Positions 3,121-21,483 of a DNA stretch of 23,443 nucleotides are shown piece after piece. The notes under the pieces were generated by a model. It was given only the letters and a program-made list of their open reading frames with translations, was not told where the DNA came from and did no database searches. Origin of the DNA: a virus; IMG/VR virus record IMGVR_UViG_3300030331_000990, positions 3,249 to 26,691 of that record. One strand, 5' to 3'. The position numbers and the translations under genes were made by a program. Positions within the stretch are counted from its first letter, which is position 1, and the number at the start of each line of letters is the position of its first letter.

Positions 3121-3804
3121 TTAATTGATTATATTTTTATTTTTTAAAAGACTAATAATGTCTTTTTTGTTTTCTTTTTTCAACGATTTAAACGCTGAAT
3201 TTCTTTTAACGACTGCATTTCCAACAGGCTCAGTAATTAGCTTTTCAGTTAATTCTAAAAGCTTTGAAAAAGACTCTTTAAGATTTTCAATTTCTTTTTT
3301 AAGTTCGTTGTTTTCTTCACTAATAGTAGCCTCCATAGAGAATACTCTTTCAGTTACAACAGACTCAATAATCTTTTTAGCCTCTCTTTCCTGAGCTTCT
3401 GTCAAAGGTGCTGACATTTCTTCTTCATCTTCAGTCTCTGCTTCTTCCTCAACCTGCGGTGCTTCCTCAGCCTCTTCAATAGCAACAATAACCCCTGCTT
3501 CAGTAGTAATTTTTCTACCGTCACTAAGTTCGTGGTCACCATCTGGAGCTGGTAAAAGCTCACCATCGACCTCAACAACAACAGCAGCACCTAAAGTAAC
3601 ATCTGGCTCAACCTGTGCGACTGTACCATCCGCTAAAACAACATCTTCAAACTTTTGTATAGTTTCTTCTGTAGTCTCTTCTTTAGTTTCTTCTGTTAAT
3701 TCCTGAGTAGTTTCTGCAAATTCTTTAGAGTCATTTTCAATATCAATACCTTCGTTTTTGAATACGTTTTTAATATCGTTAAATAATTCTTTTAATTCAC
3801 TCAT
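3121..3804 (-). CDS. Capsid scaffolding-type protein, acidic and coiled-coil
   Basis: A 227-residue protein from the ATG at 3804 (MSELKELFNDIKNVF). A start at 3840 would place the first codons inside the promoter-like block, so I reject it. Layout: helical acidic N-terminus (1-50); a beta-type module (about 52-112) with 'VVLADGTVAQVEPDVTLGA', 'PAPDGDHELSDG' and 'GVIVAIE'; a very acidic stretch (111-130, EEAEEA...EDEEEM); a coiled coil (about 137-200); and a basic C-terminus (SLKKENKKDIISLLKNK), as scaffolds use to bind capsid protein. It lies between protease and major capsid genes, the standard scaffold slot, and is the first gene after the 3829-3859 promoter-like block. Confidence 0.75.
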   Translation of the reverse strand: MSELKELFNDIKNVFKNEGIDIENDSKEFAETTQELTEETKEETTEETIQKFEDVVLADGTVAQVEPDVTLGAAVVVEVDGELLPAPDGDHELSDGRKITTEAGVIVAIEEAEEAPQVEEEAETEDEEEMSAPLTEAQEREAKKIIESVVTERVFSMEATISEENNELKKEIENLKESFSKLLELTEKLITEPVGNAVVKRNSAFKSLKKENKKDIISLLKNKNIIN

Positions 3805-12483: not shown

Positions 12484-12758
12484 CTTCTTTTTGTTTTCTG
12501 CATTTGTTCCCTATGCATTTGCATCTCCATTTTTTGTTTATCATTATAATAAGCTACTATGTTTAGTGCTTTAATTACGTTATAATTCAATACCTCATCC
12601 CACTTATCTATCCTGCTGTTTGTAAGGCTATCTAAGGTAGCCCACCATCCCCATCTTTTAGTGAACTCATTTCTAGTGTCACCTCTTTCTTTATCCTCTC
12701 CACTTCCTCCATTAAACAGGTTTTTATAGCCTTTGTTAAGCCTTCCAAGTGAGTGTAA
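12480..12758 (-). CDS. -1 frame extension of the tail assembly chaperone (programmed frameshift product)
   Basis: The -1 reading frame is open from 12767 to the TGA at 12482-12480 and has no good start of its own. Entered from the upstream chaperone frame at a run of nine T (minus strand, 12765-12757), it adds 92 residues: LHSLGRLNKGYKN... then 'FTKRWGWWATLDSLTNSRID' and 'KWDEVLNYNVIKALNIVAYY', ending in a Met/Gln/Lys-rich tail. The 'WGW...L..g.i.k.....' pattern is characteristic of the second half of frameshifted tail assembly chaperones (the GT product in lambda). The stop makes a GTGA overlap with the next gene, as expected if ribosomes arrive in this frame. Fusion length would be 265 residues (173 from the zero frame plus 92). 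Confidence 0.75.
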   Translation of the reverse strand, partial: LHSLGRLNKGYKNLFNGGSGEDKERGDTRNEFTKRWGWWATLDSLTNSRIDKWDEVLNYNVIKALNIVAYYNDKQKMEMQMHREQMQKTKRR

Positions 12759-13276
12759 AAAAAAACACTAATAGGATAAGCTATAGTCATTGGCATATTG
12801 TCAAAAAAGTTTTTAGATGTTTCTCTAATTATTTTAGCATCTACTTTTGTTTTACGCCAAACAAAAAACCTTCTTTTAACTGGTCTACATACAGTGGTTA
12901 GTATAGTATGTAGATTATCGAAAATAACCTCTTCATTATCTCTTGCTTTTTCTATTATCTCCATTATGTTAATATACTCACCAAATAATAAGTTTTGCGC
13001 TCTTAATTCAAATACATACCACTGCTTACCTATTTTAAATCTTTTGTGTTTAAGTTCTTTAGGTAGTTCAGTATCTAAAAAACTCATCTTTTTCCTTATT
13101 ACTTTATACTGATCTAAACTAATATTCTTAATTACTTCTTTCTTTTGTCCTGTTAATACAGCTAGTATGCTAATTACTCTTTGTATTGGTGTTAGCTCTG
13201 AATTTAAAACTGGTCTTAAATTAATGTAATTACCTACAGTAATATCTTTCCACTTTGTTGGTATTGTAACATTCAT
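12632..13276 (-). CDS. Tail assembly chaperone (zero-frame product)
   Basis: A 214-residue protein, MNVTIPTKWKDITVGNYINLRP, mostly helical and charged, in the style of the first tail assembly chaperone of Bacteroidota phages (start 'IP..W..IT...', then 'L...E..P.QR.I..ILA.LTG'). In this class the chaperone coats the tape measure during tail assembly and is made in two forms through a frameshift. The codons for V171-F172-F173 and the first base of Y174 contain the nine-T run where the shift would occur. It starts 5 bp after the promoter-like block at 13282-13311, so the transcript leader would be very short or absent. It opens the tail unit. Confidence 0.75.
   Translation of the reverse strand: MNVTIPTKWKDITVGNYINLRPVLNSELTPIQRVISILAVLTGQKKEVIKNISLDQYKVIRKKMSFLDTELPKELKHKRFKIGKQWYVFELRAQNLLFGEYINIMEIIEKARDNEEVIFDNLHTILTTVCRPVKRRFFVWRKTKVDAKIIRETSKNFFDNMPMTIAYPISVFFYTHLEGLTKAIKTCLMEEVERIKKEVTLEMSSLKDGDGGLP
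12757..12766 (-). other. Slippery T9 run for -1 frameshifting
   Basis: On the minus strand the coding sequence reads G TTT TTT TTT AC in overlapping form: the zero frame is GTT TTT TTT TAC. A run of nine T allows tandem -1 slippage of both tRNAs and could also cause RNA polymerase slippage. Shifting -1 after the second TTT yields TTA CAC TCA and enters the open -1 frame. It is the only such run in this gene and lies upstream of the zero-frame stop by about 40 codons. Confidence 0.75.
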
Positions 13277-13281
13277 ATTTC

Positions 13282-13311
13282 TATATATAACAAATTTTTG
13301 AATTATGACAA
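13282..13311 (-). promoter_or_regulatory. Late promoter-like block upstream of the tail genes (copy 1)
   Basis: Carries the same 20-bp TCAAAAATTTGTTATATATA (13301-13282, minus strand) as the block at 3848-3829, with TTGTCA (13311-13306) 16 bp before TATATA (13289-13284). The chaperone ATG is at 13276, only 5 bp from the block, so transcription from a -10-like TATATA would begin at or within a few bases of the start codon. It lies after a terminator and the iteron region, so it is the natural promoter of the tail unit. Confidence 0.6.
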
Positions 13312-13390
13312 TAAGACCTAAAATAAATTTTAATTAAAACCCCATCAACTAAACACCAACTAAATAAATTAACTCAACATATATTTAAAC

Positions 13391-13424
13391 ACTATTTAGA
13401 TAAGTTCTAAGACACTTAAATAGT
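13391..13424. repeat. Inverted repeat with bulged stem in the intergenic region
   Basis: ACTATTTA (13391-13398) and TAAATAGT (13417-13424) are perfect complements; AGT (13403-13405) and ACT (13414-13416) extend the stem beyond a 4-nt bulge. On the plus strand five further T follow, but no plus-strand gene is present to terminate. A second short palindrome, GTATAT-TC-ATATAC, lies at 13431-13444. Both sit between the pyrimidine tract and the late promoter-like block and may be structural elements of an origin or regulator sites. Confidence 0.5.
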
Positions 13425-13490
13425 TTTTTGGTATATTCATATACATCAGCATTTAATAATAGCTTAGAGGTCTTTATTTTAATTATATTG

Positions 13491-13550
13491 CTTTTTTATC
13501 TTATTTTATCTTTTATTGTCTTATCTTTTCTTATCTTATCTTATATAACC
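13491..13550. repeat. Degenerate 10-bp tandem repeats, AT-rich and strand-biased
   Basis: Consecutive 10-bp blocks from 13491 read CTTTTTTATC, TTATTTTATC, TTTTATTGTC, TTATCTTTTC, TTATCTTATC, TTATATAACC; the first five share the consensus TTaTnTTnTC. TCTTAT occurs five times. The plus strand is almost pure pyrimidine plus A with a single G across the first 50 bases; the minus strand is a GATAAGATAAG-type purine tract. Such easily melted arrays next to iterons are typical of DNA-unwinding elements. Confidence 0.7.
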
Positions 13551-13551
13551 C

Positions 13552-13595
13552 CATTTGCTCAGCATTTGCTTACCATTTGCTCAGCATTTGGTGTT
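13552..13595. repeat. Four tandem 11-bp iterons (candidate replication origin)
   Basis: Four units follow without gaps at exactly 11-bp steps: CATTTGCTCAG (13552), CATTTGCTTAC (13563), CATTTGCTCAG (13574), CATTTGGTGTT (13585). Units 1 and 3 are identical, giving also a 22-bp superrepeat. One unit per helical turn places every site on the same face of the DNA. The adjoining AT-rich decamer array makes an iteron-plus-melting-region layout. They could alternatively be operators controlling the late promoter 240 bp downstream. Confidence 0.7.
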
Positions 13596-13607
13596 TTTTC
13601 CTCTGTT

Positions 13608-13649
13608 AAAAAAAAGGGGAAATAAAGCTCTTTTGCCGACTATTTCCCC
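13608..13649 (-). terminator. Intrinsic terminator closing the early/terminase operon
   Basis: On the minus strand GGGGAAATA (13649-13641) pairs with TATTTCCCC (13624-13616) as a perfect 9-bp stem with a 16-nt loop, followed by eight T (13615-13608). It lies 55 bp after the stop of the methyltransferase gene (13705). On the plus strand no T-run follows, so it acts only on leftward transcripts. It separates the early operon from the tail unit. Confidence 0.85.
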
Positions 13650-13704
13650 AAAACATAAATTAATGAAATATTTCTAAAAAAAATACATTGTAAATATAAT
13701 GAAT

Positions 13705-14661
13705 TTAAAACAATTTGTAATTCACTTCTTTAATTCTTTTTTTTGCAATTTCAAAATATGCCTCATCTTGCTCTATACCTATAAATTTTCTTTTAGTATT
13801 CTTACAAGCAACTCCAGTTGTTCCAGAACCCATTGTTAAATCAACTACTAAATCATTTTCATTACTAAATGTTTTTATTAAGTCTTCTAATAATAATATA
13901 GGTTTTTGTGTTGGGTGGTATCCATCATAATCTTTTTTGTATTTTAGAATATTACTTTTGTATTTTTTACCTTCCCAAAGATTAAAAGTACTCTCAAAAC
14001 TTTTTTTATAATCTTCATAATCTTTTTTTAGTTCTGAGTATGGTTTTTTAAAAAAACCTGTTTCTTGTAATTTAGTGTAATGCTTTTCTGTTGGCATAAT
14101 CCACTGTTCTCTACCCCAATAATGCCCCAACATACCACCACCCTTTAAACTTAATCCACACATTATTCTTAAATCTCTATCCTTATAACCCGATTCTTTT
14201 ACTTTTTGTCTTTGTTCCCTCATATAATCCCTTAAATGATTATCAACTTTTAATTGATGTGTTTTACTAAAAACCAAAACATCTTCCGTAAAACTTACCA
14301 TATTCTTATTAGCACCTAAAGCAACTGCAAAATTATCTTTCTCCCAAGTAGCTCTGTAATTAAAAGGTATATTCGCAATTGCTTCTGTTATTAATTTAGT
14401 TGTATAGGGTTCCTGGCTAAATAATATCATTTTACCATTTTTCCTTAGTATTCTGTTTGCTATCTTAAAAATTTTAATTGGATCAATAGCTTTATCCCAT
14501 TTTTCAGCAGTATTTAATTTAGTATAGTTTTTGCTTTTTTCTTTCGTTTTAACCACTCCATAAGGTAAATCCGTTAATATCAAATCAACATTACCATTTT
14601 CTATTTTATTGCTTTCAATTAAACAATCTCCTTTATATAATTTTATCTTATTGAATACCAT
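13705..14661 (-). CDS. Beta-class DNA methyltransferase (N6-adenine or N4-cytosine)
   Basis: A 318-residue SAM-dependent DNA methyltransferase. Motif IV is DLPY (residues 31-34) near the N-terminus and the SAM-binding motif I is DLTMGSGTTG (274-283) near the C-terminus, followed by FIGIEQDEAYFEIAKKRI; this order defines the beta class. The segment 'YDGYHPTQKPILLLEDLI' before motif I is motif X. Residues about 140-240 form an insert with 'GGGMLGHYWGREQWIMPTEKHY', a recognition-domain type common in phage methyltransferases. It overlaps the large terminase gene by 19 bp and is the last gene before a terminator. No restriction partner is present, so it probably protects phage DNA from host restriction or marks it for packaging or replication. 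Target sequence cannot be read from sequence alone. Confidence 0.85.
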   Translation of the reverse strand: MVFNKIKLYKGDCLIESNKIENGNVDLILTDLPYGVVKTKEKSKNYTKLNTAEKWDKAIDPIKIFKIANRILRKNGKMILFSQEPYTTKLITEAIANIPFNYRATWEKDNFAVALGANKNMVSFTEDVLVFSKTHQLKVDNHLRDYMREQRQKVKESGYKDRDLRIMCGLSLKGGGMLGHYWGREQWIMPTEKHYTKLQETGFFKKPYSELKKDYEDYKKSFESTFNLWEGKKYKSNILKYKKDYDGYHPTQKPILLLEDLIKTFSNENDLVVDLTMGSGTTGVACKNTKRKFIGIEQDEAYFEIAKKRIKEVNYKLF

Positions 14662-15821
14662 CCTCTATTATTTTGTTTTAAATGTATTAAAGCTACGTAT
14701 CGCAAAGCATCTAGTAAGTGATCTTGTCCTATTGGTTTTTGTAGACTATTACCGTTTTTATCAACAGCCCATTTATAAGTTCTAAACTCTCGTCTTAAAT
14801 TACTACTACTTACTACATTTATTTTAAAGCGTTTTAAGATGTCTATTCCATTTAGTATACTATCTCTACCTTTTGTAGCTGGCTTTGCGTTTAAACCTAG
14901 TCTATATATTTCTTCTATTGACTTAGGCTCTGCACTATCACAAATAACCTCATCCCTACCTATAATAGGTCTTAGTCTTTCTGCTAGGTCCTGATTAGTT
15001 AATTCTCTTTCGTAGATGATTTCTTTTAAATATAGCTCATCATCTTTTCTATATACAGCAACACAAGCAGAAGGATCAATACTATAGCCAAAGTCTAATC
15101 CATAAGCTACTAACTTACAATCTGGCATACTATCTACATATTTAACATTCTCATATACTAGACCACTTATATTACCATACTCACCTAGACCGTATATCTT
15201 CCAAAATTCTTTATCTGTTTCTTTTAAGTACTCTATTTCTTTAATTAGTGACTTAGGTAGAAACGTATTATTTTTGTAGTTACTTACTATCACCTCTACA
15301 TCATTAACCTCTGCCGCTCTTTTTATTTCAAGCTCCTGGTTAATCCATATTTGTTCATCATCTGGATTAAAGTCTAAGAATATTTTATTCTCAGTTCGCA
15401 TTAGTAATTGAAAGAACTCTTGCTTGTATTCTAATTCGTTTGCTTCATTGCAGTATAGAATATTTCTTTTAGCACCTCTTAACTTTTGCTCATCATCAGC
15501 ACCTATAAACTCTACTAGTCTTTTACCGTATCTGTATTGTTTTTTAGTTTTATTATGATCTACACTATTATACCAATCCTCAGCTTTTAGTATGTCTTCA
15601 AAATCTCTAATTACAGTACCGTCTAGATTAGTTCTATACTTTCTAACAGTGGTCCAAACACCCTCACTCACATACATACCATTTCCATAGTTACCACTAA
15701 TTAACCATAAAGCACACAATTGATTTAAAGACCAGGTTTTACTGCTTCTAGTACCACCTCTATTAATTACTATCTTAGCTGTAGAGTCGTAGTTGCGTTC
15801 AAAGATTTCAGTCGCTTCCAC
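14643..15821 (-). CDS. terL: Terminase large subunit
   Basis: A 392-residue DNA-packaging motor (ATPase plus nuclease), Terminase_3/PBSX-like. Walker A is in RGGTRSSKTW (21-30). Walker B with its catalytic Glu is ILYCNE (121-126), and FLDFNPDDE (148-156) follows. The RNase H-like nuclease has D243 in 'GLDFGYSIDP', D295 in 'VICDSAEPKS' and D371 in 'DHLLDALRY'. All expected motifs are present and length fits the family. The start is a GTG at 15821, overlapping the small subunit by 14 bp; no upstream ATG is available in frame. It acts with the small terminase and portal at the capsid vertex; here the portal gene is about 14 kb away rather than next door. Confidence 0.92.
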   Translation of the reverse strand: MEATEIFERNYDSTAKIVINRGGTRSSKTWSLNQLCALWLISGNYGNGMYVSEGVWTTVRKYRTNLDGTVIRDFEDILKAEDWYNSVDHNKTKKQYRYGKRLVEFIGADDEQKLRGAKRNILYCNEANELEYKQEFFQLLMRTENKIFLDFNPDDEQIWINQELEIKRAAEVNDVEVIVSNYKNNTFLPKSLIKEIEYLKETDKEFWKIYGLGEYGNISGLVYENVKYVDSMPDCKLVAYGLDFGYSIDPSACVAVYRKDDELYLKEIIYERELTNQDLAERLRPIIGRDEVICDSAEPKSIEEIYRLGLNAKPATKGRDSILNGIDILKRFKINVVSSSNLRREFRTYKWAVDKNGNSLQKPIGQDHLLDALRYVALIHLKQNNRGWYSIR

Positions 15822-18927: not shown

Positions 18928-19226
18928 TTATTTTTATTTGGTGACTCTAATTCTGCTTTTATTAAATTGTGTTTGTATTTATCAAAGTCTGCTTTCAATA
19001 TAGCATTTTCTTTGTAAGATACAGCATTTTCATATTTTAATTTTGCTATTGTCTTATATTGATTTCTTATTTCGTCTTGCAGTTCGTGTATTAATTCTAG
19101 TATATCTAATAGAGTTTCTAAGCCTTCCTGTTTAACTTTATCTTTTTTCTTTTCTAGTTGATGACTAGCTTTTATAATCATTATATCTAGTTTGTTTTTT
19201 CTAAGTATTACATCTAATTCGTTCAT
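18915..19226 (-). CDS. Coiled-coil protein, hypothetical
   Basis: A 103-residue, highly charged protein with heptad-like patterning from about residue 20 to 95 (LEKKKDKVKQEGLETLLDIL and ELIHELQDEIRNQYKTIAKL). There is no catalytic motif. The ATG overlaps the stop of the helicase-like gene (ATGA), so the two are translationally coupled; an accessory or loader role for the ATPase is possible but not shown. Confidence 0.65.
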   Translation of the reverse strand: MNELDVILRKNKLDIMIIKASHQLEKKKDKVKQEGLETLLDILELIHELQDEIRNQYKTIAKLKYENAVSYKENAILKADFDKYKHNLIKAELESPNKNKCTK

Positions 19227-20083
19227 TGTTGTATGTTTTTTAGTATATTATTACCACCAATTGTAAAGCCTAAGCCTCCATTATAATCAAAACAAAGCGG
19301 CTCGTCTAGTGTTGGTGTTCCGCCAGTTTCTTTGTCTTTAATCTTTTCTACTCTTATCTGCGACATCATCCACAACTGAGGGCTGTTTATGAAACGGTGA
19401 ATACTTAATAGCTGGTCGCATCTGTTGGCAAAAACCTGGCCCCCCTCAATATCAGATTTTCTAGGTGGTTGAATATATGATGCAAACTCGTGACCTGGTG
19501 GGTATACTCTCCTAGCAGATTCTGTCATTGGATGAGTCATTAAATATATAGTTTTTCCAGTAGTATTACAAAACTCTCTTATGTCATTACATATTAAATA
19601 ATTACGTTCATATTGATTAACTCGTCTGTCGTGATTTAATCCAGTAAAAGGATCAATTACACCAGCATCACAATTAGACTCTTTAAATATCTTTAACAGT
19701 TCTTTATGATTATACATTTTCTTATTAGATACAAAGCTAAACCACTCACCTATTTTAGTATTATATTCTTTTATTTTACTTTTAGATAGATAGTTTAGTT
19801 TTGTTTGTGAATACATTTGTATTAAATCTCTAGTTAATTGACCAGCTGAATTTTCACCAGACCATAACAACCACTTTATATTATGCTTCACACTTAAGGC
19901 TAAAAAATACCATAACATAAAATTAGTCTTACCTACATTATCTAAACCTACTATAATATTAAAACTCCCTCTTTTATATAAAACCCAATTATCTAATTGG
20001 TTTCCAATTCCTAAACCTCTTTTAATTTTACCCTCTTTAAAAGCATATAAATATTTAAGTTGCTCTTCTTTTTCAACTATCAT
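19223..20083 (-). CDS. DnaB/RecA-type ATPase (replicative helicase-like, no N-terminal domain)
   Basis: A 286-residue P-loop ATPase. Walker A is GLDNVGKT (46-53), Walker B is 'CDAGVIDPF' with D144, and 'KTIYLMTHPM' followed by 'DIEGGQVFANRCDQLLSIHR' matches the sensor and linker segments of DnaB-family C-terminal domains. Full-length DnaB is about 450 residues with an N-terminal collar; only the motor domain is present here, so it may be a short replicative helicase or a RecA-like recombination ATPase such as the Sak4 group. It overlaps the DUF1376-like gene by 11 bp, a pairing that supports a replication role. Confidence 0.75.
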   Translation of the reverse strand: MIVEKEEQLKYLYAFKEGKIKRGLGIGNQLDNWVLYKRGSFNIIVGLDNVGKTNFMLWYFLALSVKHNIKWLLWSGENSAGQLTRDLIQMYSQTKLNYLSKSKIKEYNTKIGEWFSFVSNKKMYNHKELLKIFKESNCDAGVIDPFTGLNHDRRVNQYERNYLICNDIREFCNTTGKTIYLMTHPMTESARRVYPPGHEFASYIQPPRKSDIEGGQVFANRCDQLLSIHRFINSPQLWMMSQIRVEKIKDKETGGTPTLDEPLCFDYNGGLGFTIGGNNILKNIQQ

Positions 20084-20462
20084 TCTGTTGCGCTTTCATA
20101 AAGTTGTTAATACTATTAGTAGATAAATAAGGATCACTAGTAACTACCTTAGTTTTTTTAGACTTTTTAGCAGCTTCTACTCTTTTTATATATTGTTCTT
20201 TGCGTTCTTTGTATTGTTTATCTAAAAATTTTATTTTAATTTGATGTCCTTTTTTTTGTAATAGTTCCTCATCTATTAGTATATCTAGTGACTTTTGACC
20301 TATACGCCTAGCTAGTTTATTATAAGTCATACTACAGTCTTTATTCCAGTAGTGACAGACAGCATCTATAAAAGCTCCTTTGTCTTCTTTCGATAAATAG
20401 TTAATCTCTCCCCCTATCCACTGACTAGGAAAAAATTTAAAATAAGGTAGTTCTTCACTCAT
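20073..20462 (-). CDS. DUF1376-like phage replication protein
   Basis: A 129-residue protein with an N-terminal 'PYFKFFPSQWIGGEINYLSK' followed by 'EDKGAFIDAVCHYWNKDCSM' (residues 6-45), a strong DUF1376-type pattern; this winged-helix-like domain occurs in phage replication initiators and primosome proteins. The middle is 'YNKLARRIGQKSLDILIDEE', an HTH-like stretch; the C-terminus is a basic tail (KERKEQYIKRVEAAKKSKKT). It sits directly before the helicase-like gene (11-bp overlap), the expected initiator/loader slot. Candidate binder of the iterons at 13552-13595 by inference. Confidence 0.7.
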   Translation of the reverse strand: MSEELPYFKFFPSQWIGGEINYLSKEDKGAFIDAVCHYWNKDCSMTYNKLARRIGQKSLDILIDEELLQKKGHQIKIKFLDKQYKERKEQYIKRVEAAKKSKKTKVVTSDPYLSTNSINNFMKAQQNDS

Positions 20463-20881: not shown

Positions 20882-21169
20882 TTATATTTTGTTACAAATA
20901 TCTTTCTCAGATTGACTAAGATCACTAAAATTATAAGACAAATTTAAAGTTCCATAATCCATCTCATTTTTGTAGTAGGGTTCTTTTTTTTCTGAGAACC
21001 AAATTGGTGTTATATAAACAAATTCATAAAGTAAATGATATGTTATAAATCTAACAGACAGCCCAAATCTTTCAGATATGTATTTTTTTGTTTTACCTTT
21101 TGATATTAAAACTTTGATGAGTTTTTTATCGTCTTCATTTAAGCTGTCATATTTTTCTTTAGATGTCAT
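20882..21169 (-). CDS. Small helix-turn-helix protein (probable regulator)
   Basis: A 95-residue protein whose residues 13-47 (DDKKLIKVLISKGKTKKYIS then ERFGLSVRFITYHL) look like a helix-turn-helix of the type found in resolvase/LuxR-like DNA-binding domains. The second half (YITPIWFSEKKEPYYKNEMD ... LSQSEKDICNKI) has no recognised pattern. It starts 50 bp after the SSB-like gene, the longest internal gap of the early operon apart from the terminus, so an internal promoter or processing site could lie at 21170-21219. Confidence 0.55.
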   Translation of the reverse strand: MTSKEKYDSLNEDDKKLIKVLISKGKTKKYISERFGLSVRFITYHLLYEFVYITPIWFSEKKEPYYKNEMDYGTLNLSYNFSDLSQSEKDICNKI

Positions 21170-21219: not shown

Positions 21220-21483
21220 TTAAAATGGTAAGTCATCAGTTTGCTCAACTATCTGCTGAGATGGTTTTGACTCTTTTTGTGGTTCGTATGTATTCACACT
21301 AAGACTAACGTCTTTTCCAAACTGGTCTGCCTGGTCTTTAACATTAACATTTAACTTTAAATATCTATTACCTTTATATTCAAAGATATGTTCTTTAGCT
21401 TTATCTATATGAACTGTAACCGTTAGCCAGTTTTCGTTTCTTTTATTACCGCCACCACAGTATATTGTAGGTTTTTTTTCCAT
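21220..21483 (-). CDS. SSB-like protein with DDLPF tail
   Basis: An 87-residue protein that begins MEKKPTIYCGGGNKRNENWL and is beta-rich throughout (VTVHIDKAKEHIFEYKGNRY, LKLNVNVKDQADQFGKDVSL), consistent with a small OB fold. The C-terminus is 'QIVEQTDDLPF': the acidic tip ending in L-P-F matches the bacterial SSB tail (DDDIPF) that recruits host and phage replication proteins. It is shorter than E. coli SSB (178 aa). It lies next to the exonuclease and annealing genes. Single-stranded DNA protection and partner recruitment are inferred. Confidence 0.65.
   Translation of the reverse strand: MEKKPTIYCGGGNKRNENWLTVTVHIDKAKEHIFEYKGNRYLKLNVNVKDQADQFGKDVSLSVNTYEPQKESKPSQQIVEQTDDLPF

Follow-up and report, generated by a model that had tools for sequence, protein, structure and literature searches.

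The array of 11-bp direct repeats in the one long intergenic gap of the window (the whole 23,443-nt stretch analysed, positions 3,249 to 26,691 of the IMG/VR virus record IMGVR_UViG_3300030331_000990) is, on comparative sequence evidence, very probably the DNA replication origin of this marine flavobacterial phage. We further consider it likely that the array is bound by a DUF1376-like initiator, and that it is an oriR-type copy of an ancestral origin that lay inside the initiator gene, now the only origin detectable in the clade to which the window belongs (clade A).

Anatomy of the putative origin module

All annotated genes in the window lie on the minus strand, and the site is therefore read on that strand. 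The features of the intergenic region and its surroundings are the following:

12632..13276, minus strand: first gene of the late operon, 214 aa, function unknown; conserved downstream neighbour of the module
13277..13704, strand not applicable: intergenic region of 428 bp holding the putative origin module
13496..13547, minus strand: purine-rich pentamer tract, (GATAA)n, linked to the iterons through GGGGTTATAT and a candidate unwinding element
13552..13593, minus strand: iteron array of four 11-bp units, each a core AGCAAATG plus a 3-nt spacer (C/G)TN
13608..13649, minus strand: terminator-like hairpin with a covarying stem and a conserved loop (GTCGGCAAAAGAGC-T in the window), then a T-run; a separate element, not part of the origin
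14643..15821, minus strand: terminase large subunit; the module lies downstream of it in all relatives

The gap is bordered on one side by a DNA methyltransferase gene, itself downstream of that for the terminase large subunit, and on the other by the 214-aa late gene. Apart from small chance ORFs it has no coding sequence, and no other gap in the window is long, as had been claimed; short ORFs starting from its repeated ATGs were rejected because, on inspection of the relatives' sequences, the frames differ. On the minus strand, the hairpin and T-run (13649-13608) are followed by the 11-bp units (13593-13552), GGGGTTATAT, the GATAA tract (13544-13496) and an AT-rich stretch that extends to the start codon; within the clade, the AT-rich part of the gap (13277-13490) is conserved. 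In class C and D phages, the module comes directly after the stop codon of the terminase large gene.

The minus-strand units of the array are CACCAAATG, CTGAGCAAATG, GTAAGCAAATG and CTGAGCAAATG. Three exact CATTTGCT cores lie at 13552, 13563 and 13574, with a fourth, partial unit at 13585, and the identity of the array at lag 11 is 26/33; dinucleotide shuffling never gave more than 23 when the window was shuffled 200 times, and 1000 shuffles of the intergenic region reached 24 at most. The sequence GGGG separates the iterons from the GATAA tract, to which TRF assigns a period of 5 and 9.8 copies across 13496-13544 (unit TTATC or, on the minus strand, GATAA), and whose identity at lag 5 is 35/45, against a maximum of 30 in 1000 shuffles of the gap. 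Both the 11-bp array and the AT-rich repeats are real, beyond chance. The four stacked units of the original prediction are thereby borne out, as is the presence of AT-rich repeats beside them, although the decamer unit proposed for the latter does not stand: each ten-base unit is two pentamers.

The DNA next to the iterons is of low stability. Of the 100-bp stretches in the 320 bp 3' of the array, the least stable falls in the least stable 0-1% of the genome in 13 of 13 genomes, and in five of them (G005, G007, G009, G011 and G013), the genome's least stable site is at the module. Cumulative skew, which had been put forward as a check, did not help: GC skew was uninformative, and GC3 skew gave no consistent switch at the site.

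Conservation within the clade

An alignment of the same intergenic region in related phages had also been suggested, and it upholds the prediction: every near relative examined keeps the array with its 11-bp phase intact. Searching with the 214-aa protein returned 31 loci, with the array upstream in those that reach far enough, and a pattern search for the array itself returned 50 contigs; it is present in relatives both with and without the methyltransferase. Among 18 distinct clade arrays, 15 have four units, two have three and one was counted as a single unit; the core AGCAAATG is found in 56 of the 67 units, and the spacer is always (C/G)TN. One locus, L021, has an insertion with repeated CGGTCGTTTAA-like units between the array and the 214-aa late gene, some 200 bp upstream of the latter.

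The adjacent hairpin

The hairpin looks like a structured RNA or leader element. Each genome has a single copy, which lies upstream of the late operon and behind a promoter-like TATATTTG, and the 8-bp stem covaries fully, with two-sided changes in 8/8 pairs and 95.8% pairing across 86 viral contigs (near-copies included). The 16-nt loop, GTCGGCRAAAGAGCGT, is invariant but for a single A/G site and a few rare changes, such as GCTTT in place of GCGTT in the window. No Rfam family matched above its gathering score, and no complementary partner was found in the window.

Two further observations concern the loop. In L032 1-658 (IMGVR_UViG_3300030099_003215), some 41 nt stand in its place, and roughly 25 of them are antisense to the gene for the terminase large subunit in related phages; a template switch, a functional antisense loop or an artefact of assembly could explain this. 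Additionally, six bacterial genomes (L138-L143) match the loop exactly, in every case antisense within an apparent conserved carB motif, ALLPT. These matches are probably a coincidence with a conserved coding motif, although they may mark an antisense target in the host; as they all represent one carB-like coding motif, they do not identify prophages.

The same module in divergent phages

The genomes compared (G000-G013) are complete or near-complete, at about 30 kb. Phages without AGCAAATG have another period-11 array at the same terminase/late-gene junction, with the core CTTAAGCA and then, directly, TTAAGATAAGAAAAGATAA. The general form of the module in relatives with other iterons is 11-bp iterons and then TTAAGATAAGAAAAGA; the cores in these divergent phages, at the terminase/late junction and in the DUF1376-like gene, are CTTAAGCA, CTACAGC and TTCGCTAAGC. 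The module may precede or follow the hairpin, is also found in phages without one, and is therefore an independent unit. In class B and C phages, small unrelated ORFs lie between module and hairpin behind a shared promoter-like TTTTGTAGTTTATAAATATATTTATATATT (G006 15395-15667, G007 29371-29532, G008 and others), as if this stretch were a cargo slot.

A search with the DUF1376-like protein revealed a second copy of the module inside the 3' coding part of the DUF1376-like gene in most relatives with other iterons (GCTTAAGCAATGCTCAAGCATTAAGAAAAGATAAGATAA in L216, for example). Given that the same DNA is coding in the gene and non-coding at the terminase junction, the conserved property is at the level of the DNA. 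The cores match within a phage: L214 has CTACAGC and L253 has TTCGCTAAGCATA at both sites, and the in-gene/intergenic match gives p=0.033 in a permutation test of low power (five groups, three of which share one core). Four cultured phages, namely, Cellulophaga phi10:1 and Nekkels_1, Flavobacterium morran9-1 and Leeuwenhoekiella Arctus_1, have the module only inside the initiator gene; their 11-bp repeats are phage-specific, those of phi10:1 being four AAACCGAAACG-type units. In clade A, no in-gene copy was found when scored by the GCAT-tract junction, and a genome scan found no other 11-bp array, with the proviso that the strict two-part scan misses two-unit arrays.

The absence of a second site bears on the strongest of the alternatives, which is nevertheless unlikely: that the initiator binds the intergenic array without replication starting there, the array serving instead to stall forks for the switch to concatemers, or to titrate the initiator, while the true origin of clade A lies elsewhere. 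There is a precedent in SPP1 oriR, where forks have been proposed to stall at the bound initiator, setting off the change to concatemer synthesis (PMC6316719); moreover, the site adjoins the gene for terminase, which uses concatemers, and most relatives also keep the in-gene copy. Clade A, however, has no in-gene copy or other 11-bp array in its genomes, and the unwinding tract is kept. That the terminase-side copy is the one that fires is suggested by this lack of any other array in clade A; in phages that have the two, the copy beside the terminase could serve in regulation or in fork stalling.

Another reading, which we judge improbable, takes the iterons as upstream sites for an activator of late transcription, set in helical phase with a late promoter. 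The array does precede the late operon, and class B and C modules are followed by a promoter-like TTTTG-N19-TATATT, but the same module lies within a coding gene in relatives and cultured phages, L228 and L253 have no conserved promoter-like sequence between the module and the late gene, and none of the candidate activators, the HTH protein (cluster 16) included, varies with iteron type.

Co-segregation of iterons and initiator

The proteins most relevant to a replication origin in this gap are encoded elsewhere in the window:

19223..20083, minus strand: DnaB/RecA-like helicase, the probable motor loaded at the origin; neighbour of the initiator gene
20073..20462, minus strand: DUF1376-like winged-helix protein, candidate initiator (iteron binder), without the in-gene iterons and the linker that they encode in relatives
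21220..21483, minus strand: small protein assigned as SSB from its sequence, with no Pfam match; co-segregates with iteron class

The predicted fold of the candidate initiator is a winged helix, at moderate confidence (pLDDT 77; 54 for a model built without an alignment). The viral models closest to it are DUF1376, Lin1244-like and replisome-organizer proteins; its matches to solved structures are weak, and those to Pfam fall below the cut-off.

The class B phages (G006 and G008) combine terminase and structural proteins of the class A type (76-88% for many of them) with iterons of the class C type. Among the gene clusters common to all three classes, those grouping B with C most clearly are the DUF1376-like protein (identities of 38, 36 and 57% for AB, AC and BC, respectively) and SSB (52, 53 and 72%); the terminase large subunit runs opposite to the iterons (AB 88%, BC 27%), and the HTH protein is unordered relative to iteron class. 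Judged by these identities, the iteron type tracks the initiator, and equally well the SSB, rather than the terminase, structural or HTH proteins. The original prediction had named both the DUF1376-like protein and the small HTH proteins as possible binders. The former gains support as the likely user of the site from the module inside the DUF1376-like gene of relatives and from its co-segregation with iteron class, whereas the 95-aa HTH protein (20882-21169) was rejected, as similar HTH proteins occur in A and C phages that have different iterons.

That the small terminase binds the iterons as a recognition site for packaging (cosB/pac), in the manner of the lambda cosB R sites, is most improbable of all and was rejected because the repeat type does not track the terminase: the module is always just downstream of the terminase large gene, but the small terminase is 84-91% identical between A and B despite their differing iterons and has no detected homolog in class C even though C shares its iterons with B, and a second copy of the module lies inside the initiator gene.

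The in-gene twin, the co-segregation with the initiator and the low stability of the DNA 3' of the iterons all favour the predicted arrangement of an initiator-binding array beside an unwinding element. In the mechanism we propose, the DUF1376-like winged-helix initiator would bind the four iterons, which are spaced by one helical turn, in a row along a single face of the DNA; the strain of binding would melt the adjacent GATAA purine tract, at which the DnaB/RecA-like helicase would then be loaded.

Comparison with known origins

Several features of origins of the lambda ori and SPP1 oriL-oriR type are found here: tandem direct repeats, an adjacent AT-rich tract of low stability, an intergenic late-region copy, and a DNA-binding initiator (from its winged-helix model) encoded beside a helicase. 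The in-gene location, a trait of oriL and lambda ori, is absent in the window's clade and present in relatives and the four cultured phages. The iteron units of lambda are longer than 11 bp, and those of iteron plasmids usually span 17-22 bp, i.e. longer than the units of one helical turn seen here. Plasmid origins of the Rep_3/RepA kind likewise place tandem initiator repeats beside an AT-rich element, but the proteins tested yielded no Rep_3-type initiator. The basal unwinding system of bacterial oriC (DnaA boxes, GC cluster and DnaA-trios) is similar in having a binding-site array, a short G-rich spacer and a repeated purine motif; its DnaA-trios have a period of 3 rather than the 5 seen here, and the DnaA box TTATNCACA has no match anywhere in the window.

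The closest likeness is to SPP1, in which oriL lies in gene 38 and oriR is intergenic in the late region, both consisting of repeats plus an AT-rich element and both bound by gp38 (PMC6316719). The shared traits are direct repeats with an AT-rich unwinding element, an in-gene copy and a distant intergenic late-region copy bracketed by transcription signals, and one initiator for both; the repeat sequence and the host phylum differ (here the phages are those of Flavobacteriaceae), and the window's clade lacks the in-gene copy. In lambda and the lambdoid phages, ori in gene O has four iterons and then a strand-biased AT-rich tract, the origin DNA encodes the initiator linker, and extra iterons lengthen the protein (PMC7466680); the arrangement in these phages resembles it in such respects, although the window's copy is outside the initiator gene. 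Anatomically, then, the module would work like the SPP1 and lambda origins; strict membership of that type is limited by the position of the window's copy outside the initiator gene and by a likeness to the gp38 system that is judged on anatomy. The original prediction that no origin of this exact form had been described stands for the exact sequence and location, but not for the general form, for which SPP1 oriL/oriR and lambda ori are close precedents. Literature searches on DUF1376 initiators and on the origins of Cellulophaga phages returned neither a description of this module nor one of an origin for marine Flavobacteriaceae phages with DUF1376-type initiators.

A proposed relocation of the origin

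In a tree of 78 initiator sequences (mostly from metagenome contigs, with near-copies included here as in the alignment counts), the in-gene module was lost once, on the branch leading to the window's clade, with support of 100/100. The initiators of clade A are without the linker encoded by the in-gene iterons, and the sister of the clade, L214, keeps both copies. Taken together with the tree, the cultured outgroups that have only the in-gene copy suggest that the simplest course is an in-gene origin, its duplication to the terminase/late-gene junction, and the subsequent loss of the original by clade A. The window would then hold an SPP1-oriR-like origin that is now the sole detectable one. 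On balance, we favour the view that the clade moved its sole origin from the initiator gene to the terminase/late junction by this duplication and loss, and that initiator and iterons changed together on one branch.

Since intermediates with both copies survive, the steps of this relocation are directly readable and testable. Practically, 11-bp iterons followed by ATTAAGATAAGAAAAGA within a DUF1376-like gene make up a sequence rule by which candidate origins are found in cultured phages where the gene is annotated only as 'hypothetical protein'. More broadly, these phages would present the states before, during and after the departure of an origin from its initiator gene, a matter relevant to why many phage origins lie in such genes and to what releases them.
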